Assembly (NCBI GenBank): GCA_019912395.1 | Contig: JAIOIH010000042.1 | Coordinates: 1-64,000, forward strand | Reading direction: 5' to 3' | Source of the DNA: Flavobacteriales bacterium | GTDB lineage: Bacteria; Bacteroidota; Bacteroidia; Flavobacteriales_F; PHOS-HE28 | DNA: 64,000 nt | Part shown: one piece after another, positions 18,841 through 34,758 of the stretch | Numbering within the stretch: position 1 is the first letter of the stretch | Layout: every line of letters begins with the position of its first letter | The notes under the pieces: generated by a model | The model's database searches: none | The model's input: the letters and a program-made list of their open reading frames with translations, nothing else | Told to the model about the DNA's origin: nothing | Translations under genes and position numbers: made by a program

Positions 18841-18933
18841 GCTGCTTCACCATTTTCCGGACCTTTGGCTTACCTTCAACTCAGCCTGGGGCAACTTTCC
18901 GCCCCGGATCTGCATCATAGCGCAAGCAAGGCA

Positions 18934-19479
18934 ATGACTGATGAGCAAATGGTAGCCGGCTGCCTCAAGGGTGACCCGATCGCCCAAAAGGCGCTCTATC
19001 AGGCCCATGCGCGCAAAATGATGAGCATCTGCATGCGTTACGCACCCGATCGAGAACAGGCCCAGGACATCCTGCAGGACGGTTTCGTGAAGGTGTTCCA
19101 GAAAATGGACCATTTCCGGGGTGATGGCCCGCTGGGCGGTTGGATCGCACGCACGATGGTGAACACGGCCTTGGACCAGATCCGAAGGAACAAACCCTTT
19201 GAGCACAGCTTGGACCTTACCGAGGCCGAGCACCTCCACGCCACGGACAGCCAGGCCATCAGTGCCCTGAGCACCGATGAACTGATGGACTTGATCCAGG
19301 CGCTGCCACCGGGCTACCGCACAGTGTTCAACCTGTTCGCGATCGAGGGTTATCCGCACAAGGAGATCGGGGAGATGCTGGGGATCTCGGAGAACACCTC
19401 CAAGTCACAATTCATGAAGGCGCGGGCCTACCTGCGCAAATTGCTTCCGAAGGAAACGGCCAATATGTACGGTCATTGA
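18934..19479 (+). CDS. RNA polymerase sigma-70 factor, ECF type
   Basis: YAPDREQAQDILQDGFVKVFQKM (region 2); LPPGYRTVFNLFAIEGYPHKEIGEMLGISENTSKSQFMKARAYLRK (region 4). Confidence 0.96.
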   Translation: MTDEQMVAGCLKGDPIAQKALYQAHARKMMSICMRYAPDREQAQDILQDGFVKVFQKMDHFRGDGPLGGWIARTMVNTALDQIRRNKPFEHSLDLTEAEHLHATDSQAISALSTDELMDLIQALPPGYRTVFNLFAIEGYPHKEIGEMLGISENTSKSQFMKARAYLRKLLPKETANMYGH

Positions 19480-19481
19480 AC

Positions 19482-20558
19482 ATGGGCGATCAACTGACAG
19501 ACCTGCTCCGCGAGCGCTTCACCGGCCACGAGATGAACGTGCCTCCCGGCGCATGGGAACAGGTGAGCGGCCAACTGGCCGCGAATGCCAGCGGTGAAAG
19601 TCTCCGCGAAACCATGCAGGACAAGTTCAACGGGCACGAAGCCGACGTGGACCCATCCGCATGGACGAACATCAGCGGGCAGCTGATGCAGGGCACCGTA
19701 CCGGGAGCCTCCTTCAGCACCGGTTGGATCACAGCCGGTGTGGCCGCCGTGGCCATTACGGCCGGAGTGTTCCTGTGGAACCACAACAAGGCTGGGCCCG
19801 ATGTGCCCGCTGTGGAAAGAACCCACGTTGCGGTGGTGGCTTCCCCCGCTACGACGAACGAACCGGTTTCCGTAAACCCCGCACCCGTCCCGGAAACACC
19901 GGAAAAAAGAAAGGAGCTGGTGCAGCCAACACCGGAGAAGGCCGTGGTTCCCACTGCCCCGGTGAAGTCGGGATCGGTGGAAGCTGTGGAAACCACTCCC
20001 GAACCCAAGGCTGTGGAAAGATCCGAACCTGCAACTCCGAAGGCGTCCTCTTCCACGGCCGACCAAGAGACTCCGGTGGTGAAGCCCGCAGCCCCCTCCG
20101 AAGCACCTATTCCAAAGCAGGAAACCACCCCGGTGGAAGGCCCAGCGACGCACGGTACGGACATGGAAATGCCCAAGGTTACCGAAGGAGCTTCTAAGGA
20201 GGAAGCGACAGTAGCACCTCCCCCCGGCTCCACCAACAACGAACGATCCGAAGAGGATCCGTTCCGGAACGAGCATGCGAGCACGGTCCTGATCCCCAAC
20301 GTTTTCAGTCCGCAGGAGGATGGGGTGAACGACGTATTGAAGATCGTGGCCCGGGACTATGAGAAGGTGGATGTGCGGGTGTTCACGGCCAAGGGTGGTG
20401 CGCTCGTTTTCCGCTCCAATGATCTGGCCAACATGTGGGATGGTCGGCTTCCCAACGGCAACATCGCCGAGGAAGGCTACTACCGCTGCGTGGTCCTGCT
20501 TACCGACAAGGAGGGCCGCACGCGCATGGAAAGCGAAGTGGTACGACTATTCCGATGA
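19482..20558 (+). CDS. Putative anti-sigma-like membrane protein with gliding-motility (CHU_C-like) C-terminal domain
   Basis: starts 2 nt after the sigma stop; one central TM helix TGWITAGVAAVAITAGVFLW; P/T/E-rich linker; C-terminal IPNVFSPQEDGVNDVLKI...FTAKGGALVFRSNDLANMWDGRLPNG. Confidence 0.8.
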   Translation: MGDQLTDLLRERFTGHEMNVPPGAWEQVSGQLAANASGESLRETMQDKFNGHEADVDPSAWTNISGQLMQGTVPGASFSTGWITAGVAAVAITAGVFLWNHNKAGPDVPAVERTHVAVVASPATTNEPVSVNPAPVPETPEKRKELVQPTPEKAVVPTAPVKSGSVEAVETTPEPKAVERSEPATPKASSSTADQETPVVKPAAPSEAPIPKQETTPVEGPATHGTDMEMPKVTEGASKEEATVAPPPGSTNNERSEEDPFRNEHASTVLIPNVFSPQEDGVNDVLKIVARDYEKVDVRVFTAKGGALVFRSNDLANMWDGRLPNGNIAEEGYYRCVVLLTDKEGRTRMESEVVRLFR

Positions 20559-23509
20559 ATGAAATGAAGGTCCTTCGATACGTATCGCTGCTTTTCACCG
20601 TGGCATTTGCAACTTCATTGGTTGCACAGGACCCACCTGTGTTCAACAATGCAGCGGACTATGATGCTTGGAAAGCCCAGTTCATGACCCCCGGCCAGCC
20701 CGGACCCACGCATCCTTCCCAACAACCAGCAGAGGATGACAACTCCCGCGGAGGCGCTGCTACCTGCGATTGTTGGGTGACCCCGGATGCGAGTTATACC
20801 ACGATCAACAACAACACGGAATGGAACGCCAGTGGATGGGGCAACGGGGATGATGGCTCTTATGGACCGATCAACCTGCCGTTCGGCTTTTACCTCTATG
20901 GCCAAACCTTTACCGTTGCGTACATCAACATCAACGGTAGTGTTTCCTTCAATAATTACATCGGCACTTACAGTTCTTCCGCATTCCCGACCACCGGGCC
21001 GACCATGGTAGCCCCATTTTGGGCGGACGTGGACCTGCGCGGCGGCGGGGTCGGCCAGAACATCGTGCAATACAAGGTGACCCCCACGGCCATGTACGTG
21101 AATTGGACACGCGTGGGGTATTACAATCAACAAACGGACAAGTTGAACTCCTTCCAGGTGATCATCACCAATGGTACCGACCCCATCGTACCCAATGGAG
21201 CGAACGTTTCATTCTGCTACGGCACCATGGAATGGACCACGGGCAGTGCCTCCGGAGGCAGCAATGGGTTCGGAGGCACCCCCGCAACCGTGGGTGCCAA
21301 CAAGGGTGATGGCATCAATTATATACAGTTCGGACGGTTCGACCATGCCGGGATGGACTACAACGGACCTTTCGGAGCGCCGAGCGGAATCAGTTGGCTC
21401 TCGGACAAATACTTCACCTTCTCCACCTCGGTCACCACCGGCAATGTACCTCCCGTGGTCACCGGCCAATCGGTGTGCGACTCGCTCACCGTATGCACGG
21501 ACCAGACCACCCAGCTCAGCGTGGAATTCCTCTCCCCGGAACCCGACCAGATCACCGTACCTTCCTCCTACAGCAACACCTTGAGCAATTATACCGTGGT
21601 TGATTCCATCTCGGGGTTGAACGCCTCCATCACCACCCAGTTCACCCCCAGCATAGCGGATACCGGCTACCACGACGTGTACTTCGAGGGAGCTGATAAT
21701 GGCAGCCCTCCGCTCACGTCCACCCTGCACATCGTGGTCCATGTGCTTCCATCACCTCAACTGGTCTCCGACAGCTTGCTCGTCTGCGACAATGCCGTAC
21801 CGTTCGACATGCTCACCGTACTGGGTGGCAACGCACCGGCAGGTGGCGATTGGATCGCACCGGACGGCTCCAGCCACACCAACATCTTCATTCCCGGGGA
21901 GGACATGGATGGCGAATACACCTATGAAGTGGGCATCGGAACATCGTGCTCCGCCACGGGTGTCGCCACCATAACCAACGTACCCCACGCACACGCGGGT
22001 GGCGACACCGCATTGGCCTATTGCTCCTGGGATAACCCGGACAACCTCTTCCTGAAGATCCCTGATTCACCGCAAAGCGGGGGTGCGTGGATGGTTCCGG
22101 GGGGCACCGTCTTCACTGGAACGCTCGACCCCGCAACGGCCCAGCCGGGCATCTTCCAATACATCGTGGACGGTACGGCTCCTTGCCCCAACGACACGGC
22201 CTTCATCTCCGTGGCGATCCCGCAGGCCGTGGACGCGGGTGCGGACAGCTCCATTGTGCTCTGCGTGGATGCCGCCCCCTTCAGCATGCGGACCCGATTG
22301 GGCGGGACCCCGGACGCCACCGGGAAATGGACCGATGTGGCAGGCATTACGGTGCCCGACCTCTTCGACCCGGCCACCGGGGCTATCGGCTTGTACACCT
22401 ACACCGTGGCTGCCATACCCCCATGCCCGGACCAGAGCGCGATCCTTACGGTCAACGTGGACCCGCTACCGCAAGCTGGGCTGGACAGTTCCCTGGTGAT
22501 CTGTGCCAACGGGGGCAACACCCCGCTCTTCCCGTTGCTCGGCGGGAGCCCGGACACCGGCGGCCACTGGCTCGCTCCGGACAGCTCCCTGCTGGACAAC
22601 GGAATACTGGACCCCAGCCTGGAACATTCCGGTGATTACATGTATGTCACCATTGGTCCCGGTGCCTGCGCGCATCGTTCGGACACCGCCGTGGTAAACG
22701 TTCATATCGATCCGTTGCCGGTGATCTCCTTCACCGCCGAGCCGGACAGTGGCTGCAATCCCTTGGAAGTGACCTTCACCAATACCACGGACCCCATCTA
22801 CGTGGGCGGACCCTGCGTTTGGGACCTTGGTGACGGCACCGACACCGTGCATGCCTGCGGCACGTTCACCCACACCTACGCCGAGGCCGGATGGTATCAT
22901 GTGAAACTCAGGGTAACCACACCGCAAGGTTGCACGGACCAACTGATCGCGCCCGGCGCGGTACTGGTGGACCCCGCCCCGAAGGCCACGTTCACGTACA
23001 CTCCGGACCCGGGGATCGCCGGGAACAGCAGGCTGGTCTTCACGGCCACCGACCCCCATGCGGTGGACTTCCACTGGACCTTTCCCGATGGGTCGGCTCC
23101 GAGCGGGATGCAAACGGCATACACCTTCCCTGACAAGATCGCCGATGAATACCTCGTCTGCCTCTCCGTGGCCGATCGCTACGGTTGCGCGGATACCCTC
23201 TGCGACACCATTCCCATCCTGGTGGCTAACCTATGGGTACCCAAGGCATTTACTCCGGACGGCAACGGAGTGAACGACATCTTCCTGCCTGTAACCGCCG
23301 ACATGGCGCCGGAGGACTACCACCTGCGCATCTTTGACCGCTGGGGCCAGCTCTTGTTCGAAAGCACCGATCCGAACCGGGGTTGGGATGGAAGCGGCCT
23401 GCACGGCGGGCACACGGCCACCGGCATTTATGTTTGGCGATTGACGTTCAGGCCCCTTTATGCCGCTGATAAGATCGATCACTTCGGCACGGTCACGCTC
23501 CTGAAATGA
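20555..23509 (+). CDS. T9SS-type secreted adhesin: NIDO-like domain, PKD domain, gliding motility-associated C-terminal domain
   Basis: MVAPFWADVD NIDO hallmark; CVWDLGDGTDTVHACGTFTHTYAEAGWYHVKLRV PKD; LWVPKAFTPDGNGVNDIFLPV...IFDRWGQLLFES. Confidence 0.9.
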   Translation: MNEMKVLRYVSLLFTVAFATSLVAQDPPVFNNAADYDAWKAQFMTPGQPGPTHPSQQPAEDDNSRGGAATCDCWVTPDASYTTINNNTEWNASGWGNGDDGSYGPINLPFGFYLYGQTFTVAYININGSVSFNNYIGTYSSSAFPTTGPTMVAPFWADVDLRGGGVGQNIVQYKVTPTAMYVNWTRVGYYNQQTDKLNSFQVIITNGTDPIVPNGANVSFCYGTMEWTTGSASGGSNGFGGTPATVGANKGDGINYIQFGRFDHAGMDYNGPFGAPSGISWLSDKYFTFSTSVTTGNVPPVVTGQSVCDSLTVCTDQTTQLSVEFLSPEPDQITVPSSYSNTLSNYTVVDSISGLNASITTQFTPSIADTGYHDVYFEGADNGSPPLTSTLHIVVHVLPSPQLVSDSLLVCDNAVPFDMLTVLGGNAPAGGDWIAPDGSSHTNIFIPGEDMDGEYTYEVGIGTSCSATGVATITNVPHAHAGGDTALAYCSWDNPDNLFLKIPDSPQSGGAWMVPGGTVFTGTLDPATAQPGIFQYIVDGTAPCPNDTAFISVAIPQAVDAGADSSIVLCVDAAPFSMRTRLGGTPDATGKWTDVAGITVPDLFDPATGAIGLYTYTVAAIPPCPDQSAILTVNVDPLPQAGLDSSLVICANGGNTPLFPLLGGSPDTGGHWLAPDSSLLDNGILDPSLEHSGDYMYVTIGPGACAHRSDTAVVNVHIDPLPVISFTAEPDSGCNPLEVTFTNTTDPIYVGGPCVWDLGDGTDTVHACGTFTHTYAEAGWYHVKLRVTTPQGCTDQLIAPGAVLVDPAPKATFTYTPDPGIAGNSRLVFTATDPHAVDFHWTFPDGSAPSGMQTAYTFPDKIADEYLVCLSVADRYGCADTLCDTIPILVANLWVPKAFTPDGNGVNDIFLPVTADMAPEDYHLRIFDRWGQLLFESTDPNRGWDGSGLHGGHTATGIYVWRLTFRPLYAADKIDHFGTVTLLK

Positions 23510-23659
23510 TGCCAACCCCGAACACACACAACCCATTGACCTCCATTCGACCAAGATCGTGAAAGTTACCCGTTCCGGACACAAGATCTGTGCGCCGGGA
23601 TTATCTTGGCCAACCCATTTAGACGCAACCCTGCCATGGCTCCCCATCCCTACCCACCG

Positions 23660-25759
23660 ATGAAGACGATCTTGACGACCCTTTTACTGGCCAGTGCCAC
23701 GCTTGGATCCGTGCAGGCGCAAGGAGTGCAACTTTCAGTGGACGAGTACCAGGATATGAAGCTGCACGGTACGCTGCCTGCTGAATACAACGTGACCTAC
23801 TCCACCCTTCCTCCGCCCAAGGTGCAAGCGGTGAACCAAGCAAAGGGCGGTGGAGGTGGCACCGGTGGCAATTGCAATTGCTGGATCGATCCGGACGATA
23901 CGTACACGCTCGCCCTTCAACCGAATGATGACGGATCATCCGCGCAGATCACCCTGCCCTTTCAGTTCGATCTTTATGGGGACCTGTACAATACGTGCTA
24001 TGTGAACAACAACGGCAACGTTTCCTTCCAAACCGCCTTCGGCACGTATTCCTCCCAAGCCTTTCCGAACAGCAACTTCAAGATGGTAGCTCCCTTCTGG
24101 GCGGATGTGGATACCCGGAACGGTGGGGGTACCGTGATGTACAAGCTCACCCCGAACGCGCTTTATGTGAACTGGGTGGATGTGGGGTATTACAACCAGC
24201 AGACCGACAAGCTCAATTCATTCCAACTGATCATCAGCGACGGAACCAACACCGATGTGGGCCTCGGCAGTACGGTATCCTTCTGCTACCGGGAAATGGA
24301 ATGGACCACGGGCTCCGCTTCACAAGGCGTGAACGGCTTTGGTGGCGTACCGGCCACGGTGGGTGCCAACCGGGGGAACGGTATTGACTATATCCAGTTT
24401 GGCCGTTTCGATCATGCGGGCACCGATTACGACGGACCCTTCGGGGCGAATGATGGCATCAGTTGGTTGGACAACAAGAATTTCGTCTTCACCACTGCCG
24501 TGAGCACCCAGAACATTCCACCGATCGCCAGCGGCACCTCCCTCTGCGACACGGTGAACATTTGCGTGAACGAACTGGTGAACCTGGACGTGAACTTCCT
24601 TTCACCCGAACCGGACCAATTGACCACCGCGAGCTACTCCATCGTGCCACCGTTGAACGCGGTGATCACCGAAACGAACACCAGCCCTGCGAACACGGTC
24701 AACCTGAACCTCCAGTTCATTCCCTTGGTATCCGATACCGGCTACCACGTGATCACCTACACCGCCACCGATGACGGATTACCACCCTTGACATCCACGG
24801 TATCCGTGGTGTTCCGCGTCTTCTACACACCGGCCCCCCCCCCGGTGATCACGGGCGACACGATCGCCTGCGCAGGCCAAGGCGTACTGCTCACCGCCAC
24901 GGGTGGATATGAGCATTACGTATGGGCCAACGGTTTCAATGGCGAAACCGTGCTGGTAGGCCCAGGCACCTACTACGTGGAGGCCAGCACCGGTGCCTGC
25001 ATCCTGGTGTCCAACTCGATCGTGGTGCATGAAGCCCCCTCACCCAGCCCGGTGATCGACGGCGTTATGTTCAACTGCGGCGGTGACCCTGCCACGCTTT
25101 TCACCACGGAGACCTATGATGGCTATGCGTGGAGCAACGGCAGCCAAGACTCTACCATCAGCGTAGGTACGGGGACGTACAGCGTTACGGTGACCAACGA
25201 GTTCGGCTGCGAGGGCACCTCCGCCCCGGTGAACGTGCTGAGCGCGAACACGCCCACGGCCTTCTTCACCGGCGATCCCGGAGGTGATGTATTCCCCGGT
25301 ACCACGGTGATCTACACCGATCACTCCAACGGAAATGGCGGCAACATCGTGAACTGGTCGTGGAGCACGGACTCCCTGGGCGGCGGTTCCGGTACCGAGT
25401 TCACGCTGACCTTCGACACACCGGGCACCTATCCGATCACCCTCACGGTGACCACGGCGGACGGCTGTACGCACGCCTACACGTATACCCAGATCGTGAT
25501 CCCCACGGAGATCATCATCCCCAATGTGTTCAGTCCCAATGGCGATGGGCACAACGATGCCCTGGTGTTCGAGGGTGCGCAGTACTACCCGAACACGGCA
25601 CTTTCCGTGTTCAACCGCTGGGGCCAAGAGGTGTTCACCAGTACGAACTACAAGAACACTTGGCGTCCTTCCAAGGACACGCCGGACGGCACCTACTATT
25701 ACGTCCTGAAGCTCAACACGGGCAAGGAATTCACGGGCCACGTGACCTTGCTGCGCTGA
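23660..25759 (+). CDS. T9SS-type secreted adhesin, tandem paralog (NIDO-like, PKD, gliding motility C-terminal domain)
   Basis: MVAPFWADVDTRNGGGTVMYKLTPNALYVNW; IIPNVFSPNGDGHNDALVFEG...VFNRWGQEVFTS. Confidence 0.9.
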   Translation: MKTILTTLLLASATLGSVQAQGVQLSVDEYQDMKLHGTLPAEYNVTYSTLPPPKVQAVNQAKGGGGGTGGNCNCWIDPDDTYTLALQPNDDGSSAQITLPFQFDLYGDLYNTCYVNNNGNVSFQTAFGTYSSQAFPNSNFKMVAPFWADVDTRNGGGTVMYKLTPNALYVNWVDVGYYNQQTDKLNSFQLIISDGTNTDVGLGSTVSFCYREMEWTTGSASQGVNGFGGVPATVGANRGNGIDYIQFGRFDHAGTDYDGPFGANDGISWLDNKNFVFTTAVSTQNIPPIASGTSLCDTVNICVNELVNLDVNFLSPEPDQLTTASYSIVPPLNAVITETNTSPANTVNLNLQFIPLVSDTGYHVITYTATDDGLPPLTSTVSVVFRVFYTPAPPPVITGDTIACAGQGVLLTATGGYEHYVWANGFNGETVLVGPGTYYVEASTGACILVSNSIVVHEAPSPSPVIDGVMFNCGGDPATLFTTETYDGYAWSNGSQDSTISVGTGTYSVTVTNEFGCEGTSAPVNVLSANTPTAFFTGDPGGDVFPGTTVIYTDHSNGNGGNIVNWSWSTDSLGGGSGTEFTLTFDTPGTYPITLTVTTADGCTHAYTYTQIVIPTEIIIPNVFSPNGDGHNDALVFEGAQYYPNTALSVFNRWGQEVFTSTNYKNTWRPSKDTPDGTYYYVLKLNTGKEFTGHVTLLR

Positions 25760-25826: not shown

Positions 25827-26780
25827 ATGAAGGTCATCGACCACCTGCGCCAAAGCAAGCGCACCCTGTTCTCGTTCGAGGTGCTTCCCCCGTTGAAGGG
25901 CAAGGACATCCGTTCCATCTATGCCGGTATCGATCCGTTGATGGAGTTCAAGCCGAGCTTCGTGAACGTGACCTACCACCGCGAGGAGGTGATCTACAAG
26001 GAGCGCGGGCAGGGCCTGCTGCAAAAGATCCGCCTGCGGAAGCGCCCCGGCACGGTGGGCATTTGCGCCATGATCAAGGCCAAGTACGACGTGGATACCG
26101 TGCCTCACCTGATCTGTGGCGGCTTTAGTCGCGAGGATACCGAGGATGCCTTGATCGAGCTCAATTTCCTGGGCATCGATAACGTGCTCGCCCTGCGCGG
26201 CGACCCGATCAAGAGCGAGCCCCACTTCATCCCGGAACGGGACGGGCACATGTACGCCGAGCATCTGATCCACCAGATCGCCGGACTGAACCGGGGCAAA
26301 TACCTGTACGATGAAGAGCAGGAAGCAGCACCCACCAACCTCTGCATCGGTGCGGCGTGTTACCCCGAGAAACATGCCGAAGCCCTGAACTTGGCAACCG
26401 ATATCGCCTACCTGAAACGCAAGGTGGATGCCGGAGCCGACTATCTGGTGACGCAGATGTTCTTCGACAACACGCGGTATTTTGATTTTGTGGAACGCTG
26501 CCGGAAGGAAGGGATCACCGTTCCCATCATTCCCGGCCTCAAGCCATTGACCAATCTCCGGCACGTGTCCTTCATCCCGAAGACCTTCAAGATCGACCTG
26601 CCGGACGATTACGCCCTCGAGCTGGTGAAATGCACCACGGACGAGGCCGTGAAAGCATTGGGGATCGAGTGGACGGTGCAGCAGGCCAGGGAACTACAGG
26701 CGCGCAACGTGCCCAGCCTGCACTTTTATACCATGGGCCGGTCGGAGGCGGTGCGCGCCATTGCTTCCCAGTTGTACTAG
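25827..26780 (+). CDS. metF: Methylenetetrahydrofolate reductase
   Basis: FSFEVLPPLKG; VNVTYHREE; NVLALRGDP; DAGADYLVTQMFFDN; PIIPGLKPLTN. Confidence 0.97.
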   Translation: MKVIDHLRQSKRTLFSFEVLPPLKGKDIRSIYAGIDPLMEFKPSFVNVTYHREEVIYKERGQGLLQKIRLRKRPGTVGICAMIKAKYDVDTVPHLICGGFSREDTEDALIELNFLGIDNVLALRGDPIKSEPHFIPERDGHMYAEHLIHQIAGLNRGKYLYDEEQEAAPTNLCIGAACYPEKHAEALNLATDIAYLKRKVDAGADYLVTQMFFDNTRYFDFVERCRKEGITVPIIPGLKPLTNLRHVSFIPKTFKIDLPDDYALELVKCTTDEAVKALGIEWTVQQARELQARNVPSLHFYTMGRSEAVRAIASQLY

Positions 26781-28802: not shown

Positions 28803-29388
28803 TCAGCCCCGCCAACATGCGAGCAACGTACTTGCCGATCACATCGAACTCCACGTTCACCGGATCGCCGGGCATCAGCGATCGGAACGTGGTATGCGCG
28901 TAGGTGTAGGGGATCACTGCTACGCTGAAGGAAGATCCTTCGAGCGCCGCGATGGTGAGGCTCACGCCGTTCAGGCATACGGAACCCTTATCCACCAACA
29001 GCTCGCTTCTTTTTGGCAAGGCGAACGTGAACCACCAACTCCCGTCGCGCTCCTCCACTCCGGTACACGTCACCAGGGTGTCCACATGGCCTTGCACCAT
29101 GTGTCCATCGAGGCGGTCGCCGATGCGCAGGCTGCGCTCCAGGTTCACGCCATCCCCGGCCTTGAGCGCACCGAGATTGCTGCGTTGCCGGGTCTCTTCC
29201 ACGGCCGTTACGAGGAAGCGGTCATCCAGCACTTCCGTCACCGTGAGGCAGACGCCGTTGTGCGAAACGCTCTGGTCAACGCGCAGGTCCGGTGCCATGC
29301 GCGCTTTGATAACAAGATCGGTGTTGCTGCCAGCAGTGTTCACTTCCACCACCTCGCCCACTTCCTCCACGATACCGGTGAACATCAA
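28792..29388 (-). CDS. ribE: Riboflavin synthase alpha subunit
   Basis: MFTGIVEEVGEV; VSHNGVCLTVTEV; DGHMVQGHVDT; FDVIGKYVARML. Confidence 0.97.
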   Translation of the reverse strand: MMFTGIVEEVGEVVEVNTAGSNTDLVIKARMAPDLRVDQSVSHNGVCLTVTEVLDDRFLVTAVEETRQRSNLGALKAGDGVNLERSLRIGDRLDGHMVQGHVDTLVTCTGVEERDGSWWFTFALPKRSELLVDKGSVCLNGVSLTIAALEGSSFSVAVIPYTYAHTTFRSLMPGDPVNVEFDVIGKYVARMLAGLITP

Positions 29389-32039
29389 TTCTGCTGCGCG
29401 TGGTTGCCTCCGAGGAGGTGAACATAGCCTTTCAGCACTTCCGGCACGGTGCCTTCCAGCCGCTTGAAGAAGACCTTGCAGACGTAGAAGTACACGCCGT
29501 CCGGCACGGGCTCGCCCTCATTGTTCAAGGTGCCGTTCCACTTGATCTCGGGATCCTGCGTGGTGAAGATCACCTGTCCCCAACGATTGAAGACCTGCAG
29601 GTCGATCTCCTTCACGCCCCGGTAGGGGAAGGGGATGAAAAAGTCGTTCACACGATCGCTGTTCGGCGAAAAGACGTTCGGCAAGGTGTATTCCGGACAA
29701 TTGTCACCGCACACCTGGTTGCTGAAGTCGCTCTCGTTGCCCACGGTATCGATCGCGGTGACCACGTAACAGCCGGCCACCGAACTGCCATCGGTATGGT
29801 TGAAGGTGGTATCCTCCGCGCCGGTGATGGTATGGATCAGCTCCATGTCGCCACCCAAGCTGTCGGTGAAGTAGATGTTGTAGCGCCAGGTATCATTCGC
29901 GCAGCTGTTGTTGGGGTTGTTCCACGTGAGCGTGTTCAACGGGATCTCGCAATCGTTCACGATGGTAAGCGTGGGTGGGCACGGCGGCGTGAGATCCACG
30001 GGTACTGTACAGGTCTCTTGGCTGAAGTTGATCAGCGGCGAAATGATGGCCGGATCATCATACGCGCCGTAGGCCTTCACGTAGTAGCAGTACTCCTCGC
30101 CGTTCACCAGGCCGGTATCAACATATTCCGGCGTGGTGGTGCTTCCGATAAAGGTGAACACCCCGCCGATCTGCCGGTACACATCGAATTGCGTGTTGAT
30201 CCATGGCGTTGCATGCGTGATGTGCAGGGTGACCTGCTCGTCGTTGGGTTCGGGTACAAGGAACAGGCTGGACGCCGTATTGCTCGGTCCGACCAGCGTA
30301 TTGCCATTGTCGCCGTACAGATCCACGCGGTAGGCATGTCCGGTGGTACGGGTATCCAGTCCTTGATCCAAAAAGGTCGTGTCGGGATGGGCGAGGTACG
30401 GCGATGTGGAACTTGTATGGATCAACTGGTTGGCTGTGGAAAGGCCATCGCCACGGTAGAGCTTGAAGAGATACGGGCCGGGGAATTGCGCAGTGTCCAG
30501 ATCGAAGGCATTGCTCCAGCGTATGGTATCCTCCCCGGCGCTGTTGTCCGTTATGCCCACGCTCACGTGCGTCATGATGGGTACATCGCGCTGCAGCAGG
30601 TTGCAGAATTCCTCGCTGGCGTAGCTCTGGGCGCCATCCGCGAAGGTGGCCACCACCATGTAGCAATAGGTGATCCCGAAGGCCAGACCGGCATCGGTAT
30701 AGGACGTACTGTTCACTCCGGTTGTGCTCCCGATGTATTGGTAGCCCGTGTAGGCCGGAACGCCCGTCTCACAAGGCCCGTGTACAAAGCCGAAGGAACC
30801 CTGCCTGCGATAGATGCGATAGCCGTTGGCATTGGAGCATACGCTCGCGTCCCACGCCAGTTGCATCACACCACCGTCCGGCGTTGCCGTTGGGTTCTGC
30901 GGGGCCGGTGCCACCACGGTGATGAACATCGTTTCGTAATCCTGCAACTGCACCACGTTGTAATTGTCGCGTGCAGTGAAGACCACTTGGTAGGGCTGTT
31001 GCCTGACGTGGGAGCAGTTGGTATTCCACCCGAAGGTGCCAAAAACGATGTTCTGGGAAGGGGAGGAATTGAAGATCGCCGGAGAACTGGTTACTTGGAA
31101 CGGCCCTCCAAGGGCATCCAGCGTGATGGTCTGTCCGGCATCGGGGTCCGTGGCCTGCACGCTGAAGGTGAGCAAGGTGCCCGCCTCCACGCAGGTGTCG
31201 TTCACCTCCGCGATCACGGGCGGTCTGTTGTTGCATGGCCCCACGATCACCTGCATGTCGCGCTCCACCCAGCCGATGCTGACCCAATGCCCGTTGATCA
31301 GGCGCCATTCGCGCACGATGAAAGCGATGTTGTAGATCCCGGATTGTTGCGGGGCATCCCAAGTAATGGTGCCGGTAACGGGATCGATGGAATACTGGTT
31401 GTTCGCTCCGGGCATCACCTGGTTCGGGAACTGGTACCCGGGGATCGGATCGCCAAAGCCATCCCCGTTCAGGTCGCCCCCCAAGCAGACCACCGTTTCG
31501 AATGAAAGGCTGTCCCCATCGGTATCGTAGGCGCCCGGGTTATGCACCCATAGTTGGCCAAGGCAGGCGTTCTGGATGGGCGGATTGAGGAAACGGGGGC
31601 TGCAATTGTTGCCCGCCACGCTGATCACCAGCTGGGTCTGCACGCACATCGGCACGTTCACCGAGCCGGGAATGTTCACCACATCGGCCACGCGGTTGGG
31701 GTCGATGTACTGCAGGAGATAAACGCCCGGACCGGGATAGACGTGCTGGTGGATGTAGAGGTTCCGCTGGGTGCTGATCCCCGCCACAACTACCGGTGTT
31801 GCTGAATCCCTTTGTATGGTGTCCAACGGTGTTCCATCGCCCCAATCCAAGATGAACTCCGGCCGGTCCGCTTGGGAGTTGGGGTTGGTGTAGGTGATGA
31901 TGGTGACCTCGTAAGTCAAGCCGCTGTCACTGCCCACATGGCACACCAGAATTTCACCCGCTTCATTGTGGGTGGCACGTGCCGTAAAGGCAAGGGCCAG
32001 CAGGACGCATGCCACAAGAGCGCGGAGAAAGCCGTTCAT
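29385..32039 (-). CDS. T9SS-type secreted multidomain protein (Fn3-like repeats, gliding motility-associated C-terminal domain)
   Basis: signal peptide MNGFLRALVACVLLALAFTARA; YTLPNVFSPNSDRVNDFFIPFPYRGVKEIDLQVFNRWGQVIFTT. Confidence 0.9.
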   Translation of the reverse strand: MNGFLRALVACVLLALAFTARATHNEAGEILVCHVGSDSGLTYEVTIITYTNPNSQADRPEFILDWGDGTPLDTIQRDSATPVVVAGISTQRNLYIHQHVYPGPGVYLLQYIDPNRVADVVNIPGSVNVPMCVQTQLVISVAGNNCSPRFLNPPIQNACLGQLWVHNPGAYDTDGDSLSFETVVCLGGDLNGDGFGDPIPGYQFPNQVMPGANNQYSIDPVTGTITWDAPQQSGIYNIAFIVREWRLINGHWVSIGWVERDMQVIVGPCNNRPPVIAEVNDTCVEAGTLLTFSVQATDPDAGQTITLDALGGPFQVTSSPAIFNSSPSQNIVFGTFGWNTNCSHVRQQPYQVVFTARDNYNVVQLQDYETMFITVVAPAPQNPTATPDGGVMQLAWDASVCSNANGYRIYRRQGSFGFVHGPCETGVPAYTGYQYIGSTTGVNSTSYTDAGLAFGITYCYMVVATFADGAQSYASEEFCNLLQRDVPIMTHVSVGITDNSAGEDTIRWSNAFDLDTAQFPGPYLFKLYRGDGLSTANQLIHTSSTSPYLAHPDTTFLDQGLDTRTTGHAYRVDLYGDNGNTLVGPSNTASSLFLVPEPNDEQVTLHITHATPWINTQFDVYRQIGGVFTFIGSTTTPEYVDTGLVNGEEYCYYVKAYGAYDDPAIISPLINFSQETCTVPVDLTPPCPPTLTIVNDCEIPLNTLTWNNPNNSCANDTWRYNIYFTDSLGGDMELIHTITGAEDTTFNHTDGSSVAGCYVVTAIDTVGNESDFSNQVCGDNCPEYTLPNVFSPNSDRVNDFFIPFPYRGVKEIDLQVFNRWGQVIFTTQDPEIKWNGTLNNEGEPVPDGVYFYVCKVFFKRLEGTVPEVLKGYVHLLGGNHAQQN

Positions 32040-32243
32040 AGTTGCTACAAAGTACGTGAATTTCGGGGCTTGTAGTTGTGGCATTGGATACCGTTGCATG
32101 ATCGAGAGGTACCGTTGGCCGGTGCGTTCCGCTGGAATTGCGGGCTCCGCCCATCGCGATATGATCAAGGGACGGGCAGGTGCGCCACTTGGGGAAGTTA
32201 TCTTCGGCCTCTCTTTTGCCCACCACATAACCCGTTCAAGGCC

Positions 32244-33677
32244 ATGCTTCAGATCACCAAGACCACTCGTGTTTCCGGTGCCAAGGATCTCTTGGTGATC
32301 CTGACCGACAACGCCCAATTGCGGGGCATCGGCCTGGAGCGCAACGACCACCAATACCTTCTGGAACAGTTGAAGGACGAGCCGCTGATGGCCACCTGCG
32401 ACATCAGTGGCCGCCTGGTGATGGTACACCAAGTGCGCAAGGGGAGCACCTCCCAGCAATTGGAGCGCGCCCGACAGGCCGGCAACGCCATGGCCCTGAA
32501 GCTGATCGCGACCAAGCGGGAAGAGGCACAGGCAGTGAGCTTGCAGGGTGATCCCGCGCTCACCTTGGCCTTGCTTGAAGGCGCCACCTTGGGCGCATAT
32601 ACCTTCAACCGCCACAAAACGGGCGACCAGCCACGCACCTTGAAAAAGCTGGGGCTGATCGCTACGGAAGTGAAGGCCCCGGCCCTGCAGGAATTGCTGG
32701 ACGTATGCGAGGCCAACCTCACCGCCCGCGACCTGGTGAACGAACCCGTTTCGCACCTCAGCGCCGTGCAGCTTGGCCAAGCAGCGCAGAAGCTCGGGAA
32801 AAGTGCCGGCTTCACCACTAAGGTGATGAACAAGAAGCAGATAGAAGCTGAAAAGATGGGCGGCCTGCTCGCGGTGAACCAAGGCAGCATCGATCCGCCA
32901 GTGTTCATCGTAATGGAATGGAAGCCGAAAGGCGCGGTGAACAAGAAGCCGGTGGTGCTGGTGGGCAAAGGCGTGGTGTATGACACCGGTGGCCTCAGCC
33001 TGAAGCCCACGCCCAACAGCATGGACGCGATGAAATGCGACATGGCAGGCGCCGCCGCGGTGATCGGAGCGATCACCGCCGTGGCCAAGCGCAAGCTCCC
33101 CGTGCATGTGGTGGCCTTGGTGCCATCCACGGATAACCGCCCCGGTGGAAGGGCCTTCGCCCCCGGCGATGTACTGAAGATGCACAGCGGCCTCACCGTG
33201 GAAAACCTCAACTCCGACGCGGAAGGTCGCTTGATCCTGGCCGATGCGCTCAGCTACGGCGAACGCTACGATGCCGAGACCATCTTCACCATTGCCACCC
33301 TCACCGGGGCTGCATCCCGGGCCATCGGCACCTACGGCACCGTGACCATGGGCACCGCCACGGAACAGCAGTTCGCCCTGCTTCACGAGGCTGCCGACTC
33401 CACATATGAGCGCGTGGCCCGCATGCCTTTCTGGGATGAATACGGGGAGGAGATCAAGAGCGATATCGCCGATATGAAGAACATCGGCGGTCCGCTGGCA
33501 GGCCAGATCACCGCCGGGAAGTTCCTGGCGCGCTATACCACCAAACCCTTCATCCACCTCGACATCGCGGGTCCCTCTTTCCTGGACAAACGCGACCATT
33601 ACCGCACCAAGGGCGGCTCCGGAGTAGGGGTGCGCCTGTTGTTCGAATTCATCAAGCGCCGGGCATCGGCCAAGTGA
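32244..33677 (+). CDS. pepA: Leucyl aminopeptidase (M17)
   Basis: GKGVVYDTGGLSLKP; MKCDMAGAAAVIG; NSDAEGRLILADAL; HLDIAGPSF. Confidence 0.96.
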   Translation: MLQITKTTRVSGAKDLLVILTDNAQLRGIGLERNDHQYLLEQLKDEPLMATCDISGRLVMVHQVRKGSTSQQLERARQAGNAMALKLIATKREEAQAVSLQGDPALTLALLEGATLGAYTFNRHKTGDQPRTLKKLGLIATEVKAPALQELLDVCEANLTARDLVNEPVSHLSAVQLGQAAQKLGKSAGFTTKVMNKKQIEAEKMGGLLAVNQGSIDPPVFIVMEWKPKGAVNKKPVVLVGKGVVYDTGGLSLKPTPNSMDAMKCDMAGAAAVIGAITAVAKRKLPVHVVALVPSTDNRPGGRAFAPGDVLKMHSGLTVENLNSDAEGRLILADALSYGERYDAETIFTIATLTGAASRAIGTYGTVTMGTATEQQFALLHEAADSTYERVARMPFWDEYGEEIKSDIADMKNIGGPLAGQITAGKFLARYTTKPFIHLDIAGPSFLDKRDHYRTKGGSGVGVRLLFEFIKRRASAK

Positions 33678-33687
33678 CCACCTGACC

Positions 33688-34758
33688 ATGACCGAAGGAC
33701 CAGTGCGTGTGGGCATCAGTTGCGGAGACCTCAACGGTATCGGCCTTGAGGTGATCTTGAAAACCTTCGAGGACTCGCGGTTGTTGCAGGAGATCACCCC
33801 GGTGCTGTACTGCGGCGCCAAGGCTGTCAGCGTCCATCGCAAGTACATGGGCGGTGGTGAGCAAATGCAGGTGAACGGCATCGCGAACGCGCAGGATGCC
33901 ATACCGAAAAAATTGAACGTGGTGCATGTCTGGGAGGATGAAGCACCCATTGAGCCCGGCGTACCCTCGGGCACAGCGGCCAGCTATGCCATCCAGAGCC
34001 TGGAAGCCGCAGCCCAGGACCTGAGCGCCGGCAAGGTGGACGTGCTGGTGACCGCCCCCATCGACAAGCACAGCATGGAGCAGGCGGGCTTCGCTTTTCC
34101 CGGCCACACGGAATTCCTGGCCCACATGGCCGGCGGGGATGCCGAGGTGCTGATGCTCCTGGTGAGCGAGAACTTGCGCGTGGGCACCGTTACGGGGCAC
34201 ATCCCCCTGAAGGACGTGGCCAATGCCGTCACCACGGAACGGATCCTGATAAAGGCCCGCCTGATGCACCAAAGCCTGGAACGTGATTTTGGGATCAACG
34301 GCCCCAAGATCGCCATCCTGGGCCTCAACCCGCACGCCGGGGACAGCGGCACCCTTGGCAGCGAGGACAAGGAGCGCATCCTGCCCGCAGTGCGCAAGCT
34401 CAACGAGGAGGGTATCCTCGCCATGGGTCCATTTCCCGCTGACGGCTTCTTCGGAAGCGGCAGCTACACCCACTTCGATGGCGTGCTGGCCATGTACCAC
34501 GACCAGGGCCTCGCCCCGTTCAAGGCGCTCAGCTTCGGCCATGGGGTGAACTACACCGCCGGCCTGCCCATCGTACGCACCAGCCCCGACCACGGCACGG
34601 GCCTCGATATTGCGGGAAAGGGCGTCGCCGATGAGGGTTCGTTCCGCCATGCGGTATGGCTGGCCTGCGATATCCTGCGGAGTCGGGAAGCCTACAAGGC
34701 CATGACGGCCAACCCGTTGCAGCCACAGAAGCGGGAGAAGGAAAGGAAGCAGCGCTAG
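33688..34758 (+). CDS. pdxA: 4-hydroxythreonine-4-phosphate dehydrogenase
   Basis: GISCGDLNGIGLEVI; VTAPIDKHSMEQAGFAFPGHTEFLA; LGLNPHAGDSGTLG; YHDQGLAPFKAL; RTSPDHGTGLDIAGKG. Confidence 0.97.
   Translation: MTEGPVRVGISCGDLNGIGLEVILKTFEDSRLLQEITPVLYCGAKAVSVHRKYMGGGEQMQVNGIANAQDAIPKKLNVVHVWEDEAPIEPGVPSGTAASYAIQSLEAAAQDLSAGKVDVLVTAPIDKHSMEQAGFAFPGHTEFLAHMAGGDAEVLMLLVSENLRVGTVTGHIPLKDVANAVTTERILIKARLMHQSLERDFGINGPKIAILGLNPHAGDSGTLGSEDKERILPAVRKLNEEGILAMGPFPADGFFGSGSYTHFDGVLAMYHDQGLAPFKALSFGHGVNYTAGLPIVRTSPDHGTGLDIAGKGVADEGSFRHAVWLACDILRSREAYKAMTANPLQPQKREKERKQR

Follow-up and report, generated by a model that had tools for sequence, protein, structure and literature searches.

A putative anti-sigma factor of Dma-like plan with a CHU_C cap, encoded between an ECF sigma factor and two adhesins in a Flavobacteriales bacterium

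In Dma proteins, an anti-sigma domain at the N terminus is joined through a helix and a disordered tether to a β-barrel at the C terminus, and the proteins are encoded beside ECF21 (extracytoplasmic function) sigma factor genes; Dma1 and Dma2 hold their sigma factors inactive (PMC13088901). Here, we describe a locus of comparable plan in a Flavobacteriales bacterium, found in positions 1 to 64,000 of contig JAIOIH010000042.1 (the window; its own genome is G000), where an ECF sigma factor gene is followed by the gene of a membrane protein with a C-terminal CHU_C domain, termed the partner below, and by two adhesin genes. To our knowledge, what Dma-type anti-sigma factors sense has not been established, and we know of no account of how Bacteroidota keep the making of giant surface adhesins in step with their export. 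The first-pass annotation of the window had read the partner as an anti-sigma-like sensor controlling the adhesins; class-wide pairing with sigma genes, a common N-terminal module, and a common promoter support the anti-sigma role and the control of the adhesins well, and to judge from sequence comparison, the partner probably acts as an anti-sigma factor and controls the operon. The repeat in the N-terminal part of the partner, the lack of NRWG in its cap, the promoter, and a second sigma/transmembrane-CHU_C pair in G000, all described below, go beyond that annotation.

The partner protein and its cap

Pfam matches and open reading frame coordinates place four genes head to tail on the plus strand: the ECF sigma factor (18934 to 19479; 181 aa; Sigma70_r2, 62.7 bits; Sigma70_r4_2, 58.7 bits), the partner (19482 to 20558; 358 aa), adhesin 1 (20555 to 23509; 984 aa), and its paralogue adhesin 2 (23660 to 25759; 699 aa). 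Both adhesins have a signal peptide, NIDO and PKD domains, and a CHU_C domain with the NRWG motif, and they are the only NIDO proteins found in G000. All four positions agree with the first-pass annotation, as do the 2-nt spacing between the sigma stop codon (19477 to 19479) and the partner ATG (19482), the ATGA overlap of the partner stop with the adhesin 1 start (20555 to 20558), and the adhesin 2 start at 23660.

The presumably cytoplasmic residues 1 to 70 of the partner form a tandem repeat with the aligned consensus LFRERFxGHExxVdPgxWxxIsxQL, and AlphaFold2 predicts one helical hairpin of about 33 aa for each motif copy. Copy 1, the proposed sigma-binding module, spans residues 1 to 34 (19482 to 19583, plus strand; predicted helices 3 to 13 and 24 to 34), and copy 2 spans residues 38 to 70 (19593 to 19691, plus strand; predicted helices 38 to 49 and 58 to 68). 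Six orthologues (L050, L051, L052, L054, L058, and L067) carry three motif copies; two or three are found among genus orthologues, and one elsewhere in the class. A single transmembrane helix follows at residues 80 to 98 (19719 to 19775, plus strand), with a hydropathy of 1.74 over 19 residues against 0.52 for the next best stretch, and all orthologues listed likewise have one hydrophobic helix. The part ahead of it is a conserved stretch of 79 residues with no N-terminal signal peptide, the first hydrophobic stretch beginning at residue 80. Behind the helix lies a tether rich in P, T, E, and A (19776 to 20285, plus strand) of low predicted order (predicted local distance difference test [pLDDT] mostly 45 to 60). 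Its sequence drifts and its length stays at 165 ± 8 aa (23 orthologues measured), which is the behavior expected of a spacer. Pfam finds only CHU_C in the partner, and residues 1 to 79 match no recognized anti-sigma domain; a FecR type was rejected since no FecR domain is present, and no domain of the RseA or zinc type is matched either, the N-terminal part giving predicted hairpins instead.

The C-terminal cap (residues 270 to 345; 20289 to 20516, plus strand) matches Pfam CHU_C with 46.4 bits (cutoff, 27), as the first-pass annotation had anticipated, and is predicted by AlphaFold2 at pLDDT 94 to 98. That annotation placed such domains normally on secreted proteins of gliding or the type IX secretion system (T9SS). 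The cap scores 24.8 bits, below the cutoff of 35, on the NCBI type B sorting model TIGR04131, on which the two adhesins reach 37 and 53 bits, and it lacks NRWG. None of the 56 anti-sigma caps (29 from the genus, 26 from the class, and 1 paralogue) has this motif, compared with 37 of the 41 other CHU_C domains in G000. The cap is, by these sequence measures, not an ordinary secretion signal. In Flavobacterium johnsoniae, secretion is reported to depend on every one of five conserved motifs in a type B domain, which may or may not include NRWG (PMC12618676). Comparison of the partner model with the PDB gave only general immunoglobulin (Ig)/PKD-like matches, and the partner sequence weakly matches the C terminus of the grappling hook protein from Aureispira. 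Separately, a CHU_C domain without NRWG occurs in a 203-aa frame on G000 contig 49 (L229, 1369 to 1581), near no listed sigma gene.

Class-wide pairing and barrel-capped relatives

Orthologues of the partner were found in 29 other genomes of the genus at about 30 to 50% identity, one of them cut at a contig end, and the sigma gene lies directly upstream in 29/29. Most genus members have one to three adhesins downstream, followed by MTHFR; all four genes overlap in L046, where adhesin 2 overlaps adhesin 1 by 4 nt, and in some members the adhesin is replaced by a protein with CUB, P-domain, PKD, and CHU_C. Within the genus, the type of cargo varies and the regulator pair is constant.

Near relatives in named records come from Flavobacteriales and Bacteroidetes metagenome-assembled genomes, and the cultured Salibacter halophilus has a pair whose partner combines a single motif copy with a PKD domain and CHU_C. 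With the Salibacter protein as query against 395 genomes of the class, 30 loci were inspected. A transmembrane-CHU_C protein is present at 28 of them, Salibacter itself included, and all 28 genes sit after an ECF sigma gene with spacings of −20 to +48 nt; in the other two (L162 and L167), the match is limited to the PKD/CHU_C part and no sigma gene adjoins. Chance adjacency was rejected on this class-wide count. The class proteins share the motif NIEELFKxxFENFEAxVdPsVWxNIQ, which is homologous to both repeats of the window protein (profile scores of 56 to 90, shuffled columns at most 15); for copy 2, the score is 89.7 against copy 1 and 62.6 against the motif of the class. PKD domains have been added to the cap in many members. 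G000 itself encodes a second pair on contig 19 (L116, 4423 to 6501; about 149 to 155 kb), comprising a sigma factor and a transmembrane-PKD-PKD-CHU_C protein whose cap lacks NRWG, then a giant adhesin-like frame of more than 1200 residues from 7170 onward; upstream of its sigma gene, a GCAACC site is paired with CGTC, not CATC.

Two loci (L390 and L391) link this family to the barrel-capped type. Their partners have the Dma plan with OMP_b-brl_2 above cutoff, and their N termini score 47.5 and 36.6 to the CHU_C-type motif (shuffles below 4). Their sigma factors fall into one group with the CHU_C-linked sigma factors (support, 92/87), although several branches are long and the details are unsure; all sigma factors paired with helix-tether proteins also separate from the other ECF sigma factors of G000 (100/99, again with several long branches). 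Since the hairpin motif also occurs on barrel-capped proteins, the partner would be a Dma-like anti-sigma factor in which the barrel has been exchanged for CHU_C. An exchange between the two caps, in one direction or the other, is concluded to have taken place. Given that a barrel has to end up in the outer membrane, an outward C terminus is supported for the shared plan.

Homology of the hairpins to barrel-capped proteins was accepted for L390 and L391 only. On G000 contigs 83 and 74 (L114 and L122), a sigma gene is followed by a helix-tether protein with a C-terminal β-barrel (weak OMP_b-brl_2), again the Dma plan, and the N termini are weakly similar to the CHU_C-type motif; the match to the L122 family was in register but barely above shuffles and failed with a simple position matrix, so that it was not accepted. 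At L402 and L417, sigma genes with the promoter described below precede short helix-anchored partners (about 260 aa) with the motif and with neither barrel nor CHU_C.

Promoter and predicted targets

A predicted ECF promoter (18890 to 18918, plus strand) lies ahead of the sigma gene, with the −35 element GCAAC at 18891 to 18895 and, 16 bases after GCAACY, the −10 element CATC at 18913 to 18916; the pattern GCAACY-N16-CATC matches once in the window, at 18891 to 18916. The sigma gene is preceded by this pattern in 28/29 regions of the genus (L059 has the near match GCAACG) and in 22/28 of the class, always with a spacing of 16, compared with 0.025 hits on average in shuffled sequences.

Sites of this type also precede cargo genes elsewhere. 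In L063, adhesin 1 has been relocated upstream of the sigma gene and has its own promoter copy about 36 nt before its start, and perfect sites that lie outside sigma operons in other families stand ahead of signal-peptide genes, with CHU_C tails where these are complete. In the 395 genomes, roughly 120 sites fit a stricter pattern, compared with about 11 when that pattern is reversed. Among 60 sites from site-rich families, which were chosen after the first examples had been seen, the first gene bears a T9SS tail in 23, whereas of the 218 other genes in those regions 21 do (Fisher P = 7e-7). A sigma gene comes first at 7 of the sites, compared with 1 of 218, one of the seven (L382) being a weak hit that resembles a housekeeping sigma factor. 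Comparator families gave a T9SS tail at 0/20 sites and a sigma gene at 2/20; the latter two show that promoters of this type extend beyond the control of cargo.

Several individual sites may be recorded here. GCAACC-N16-CATC lies about 100 nt ahead of the apparent housekeeping sigma gene of L382 (family f51), and L389, L392, and L394 (family f23) have the same promoter at a secreted protein that is conserved and about 430 aa long; in genomes G056 and G134, a site of the latter type is about 2 kb from the sigma/barrel-capped pair (L390, L391). Around the operon of the window, MTHFR (25827 to 26780) follows on the adhesin strand after a 67-nt gap and is kept in almost all genus members whose sequence extends far enough, and a very large frame on the minus strand (29385 to 33974) ends in a canonical CHU_C with NRWG, a further type IX cargo gene near the locus.

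Proposed mechanism and comparison with known systems

In the mechanism that we propose, the cytoplasmic hairpins, two in the window protein, would hold the sigma factor at the inner membrane, which the single helix would span, and the disordered tether of about 165 residues would extend into the periplasm, placing the CHU_C cap at the far end in the position of the Dma β-barrel. Once released, the sigma factor would transcribe its own operon (sigma, anti-sigma, and adhesins) from GCAACY-N16-CATC and, in other genomes, unlinked type IX cargo genes as well. The sequences themselves show the architecture, the class-wide pairing, the homology of the module, the two kinds of cap, the lack of NRWG, and the promoter with its enrichment ahead of cargo genes. 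That the hairpins bind sigma, that the effect is repression, and that the cap is periplasmic are the parts that we infer: the sign follows from Dma1 and Dma2, which hold their sigma factors inactive, and the topology from the missing signal peptide together with the barrel-capped relatives.

The cap may dock on a shuttle or translocon of the type IX system and stay unexported, its occupancy reporting the state of secretion and setting adhesin expression; this is the most speculative step, possible but doubtful. Docking on a shuttle is the most economical idea given the barrel-capped relatives, the NRWG-less cargo tag of this protein, and the cargo targets; 13 PorP/SprF-type shuttles are encoded in G000 and none in this locus. 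In a further specification, which we hold to be rather unlikely, the cap would be a leashed cargo mimic, and sigma release would change when real cargo displaces it or, under scarcity of cargo, when it docks stably.

Several observations weigh against the proposed mechanism. The Salibacter pair has no adhesin behind it, and the positive-inside charges around the partner helix are uninformative for topology. In G000, the loose promoter pattern stands at background level (59 versus 53), so that the regulon there may be the operon alone. An AlphaFold2 model of sigma factor and partner, in which the in-frame stretch of L042 was run as one tethered chain with five sigma rows (3-nt gap, the stop read as Gly to provide a tether, with no readthrough claimed), reached a predicted template modeling score of 0.37, too poor for use as evidence of binding. 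Finally, the sensing step, for which the first-pass annotation had named T9SS substrate load or secretion, is plausible in itself and is argued from fit, namely, a cargo-like fold without NRWG and predicted T9SS-cargo targets.

It is quite possible, if short of probable, that the anti-sigma factor is real and its cap senses a cue other than T9SS, such as a periplasmic or outer membrane ligand, envelope damage, or surface contact, with CHU_C as a recruited Ig-like domain. The loss of NRWG from every cap, the score below the sorting cutoff, the resemblance to general Ig/PKD-like folds, and the added PKD domains all suit such a cue, and the outer end is exchangeable, as the barrel-capped and the short-capped relatives show; however, the cap is specifically of the CHU_C type class-wide, and the predicted targets are enriched for T9SS cargo. 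FecR and some other membrane anti-sigma factors have pro-sigma activity, and sequence alone is silent on the sign, so the partner might instead be an activator or chaperone of the sigma factor whose loss would silence the operon, but this appears improbable given that Dma1 and Dma2, of the same plan, keep their sigma factors inactive (PMC13088901) and that the FecR domain is absent. That the sigma/anti-sigma pair and the adhesins are neighbors with no regulatory link is more improbable still: the Salibacter pair and the differing adhesin types of genus members would fit, whereas the overlapping genes, the single conserved promoter ahead of the operon, the promoter copy of the relocated adhesin, and the enrichment of sites before cargo genes elsewhere argue for a link. 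An ordinary exported T9SS type B adhesin that happens to lie beside a sigma gene, as the Pfam CHU_C domain and the true type B adhesins next door might suggest, is rejected on the missing signal peptide, the internal helix behind a conserved 79-residue cytoplasmic part, the absence of NRWG from 56/56 caps, the subthreshold sorting score, and the 28/28 class-wide sigma pairing.

A class-wide family of Dma-like proteins whose outer part is a modified cargo tag, and for which a promoter can be identified together with cargo targets, would make a testable circuit, cultured Salibacter halophilus included. If the cargo-mimic version is true, cells would gauge export capacity and adjust cargo transcription through one envelope-spanning protein. 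The annotation of such proteins is likely to go no further than CHU_C or gliding-associated C-terminal domain protein, so that any regulatory role would stay hidden.

The first-pass annotation had called the architecture unfamiliar, which is right in part, the plan being known from Dma with a β-barrel in place of CHU_C (PMC13088901). A literature search, which did not take in the PNAS 2024 Dma paper, where CHU_C-capped members may be mentioned, found no anti-sigma factor linked to CHU_C or to the gliding C-terminal domain. Type B C-terminal domain cargo with PorP/SprF shuttles (PMC12618676) shares the CHU_C fold and the N-terminal FSPxxDGVND signature with the cap, but the partner lacks a signal peptide and NRWG, scores below the TIGR04131 cutoff, and is anchored behind a membrane helix in a locus with no shuttle gene. 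PorA, in the PorA/PorXY-SigP pathway of Porphyromonas gingivalis (PMC7712824), is a cargo-tagged protein that also acts upstream of an ECF sigma factor in the setting of the T9SS, and it serves as a precedent; this surface protein carries a type A domain and works through a two-component system, whereas here the tag and the proposed anti-sigma part are in one protein and the predicted targets are cargo. The SM6 ECF promoters of Flavobacterium psychrophilum (PMC9723704) likewise place T9SS-related genes under ECF-type control, with a sigma/anti-sigma operon among the targets; they have a CGT −10 box and serve machinery genes (gldN and porU), unlike the CATC −10 element and cargo genes of this system. 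In layout, the partner shares with Dma one helix, a long disordered tether, an outer C-terminal cap, and an adjoining ECF sigma gene, and its hairpins would correspond to the cytoplasmic anti-sigma part. The cap is a β-barrel there and CHU_C here, vesiculation and polysaccharide utilization loci are regulated there and T9SS adhesins are the predicted targets here, and the putative anti-sigma motif is duplicated here.

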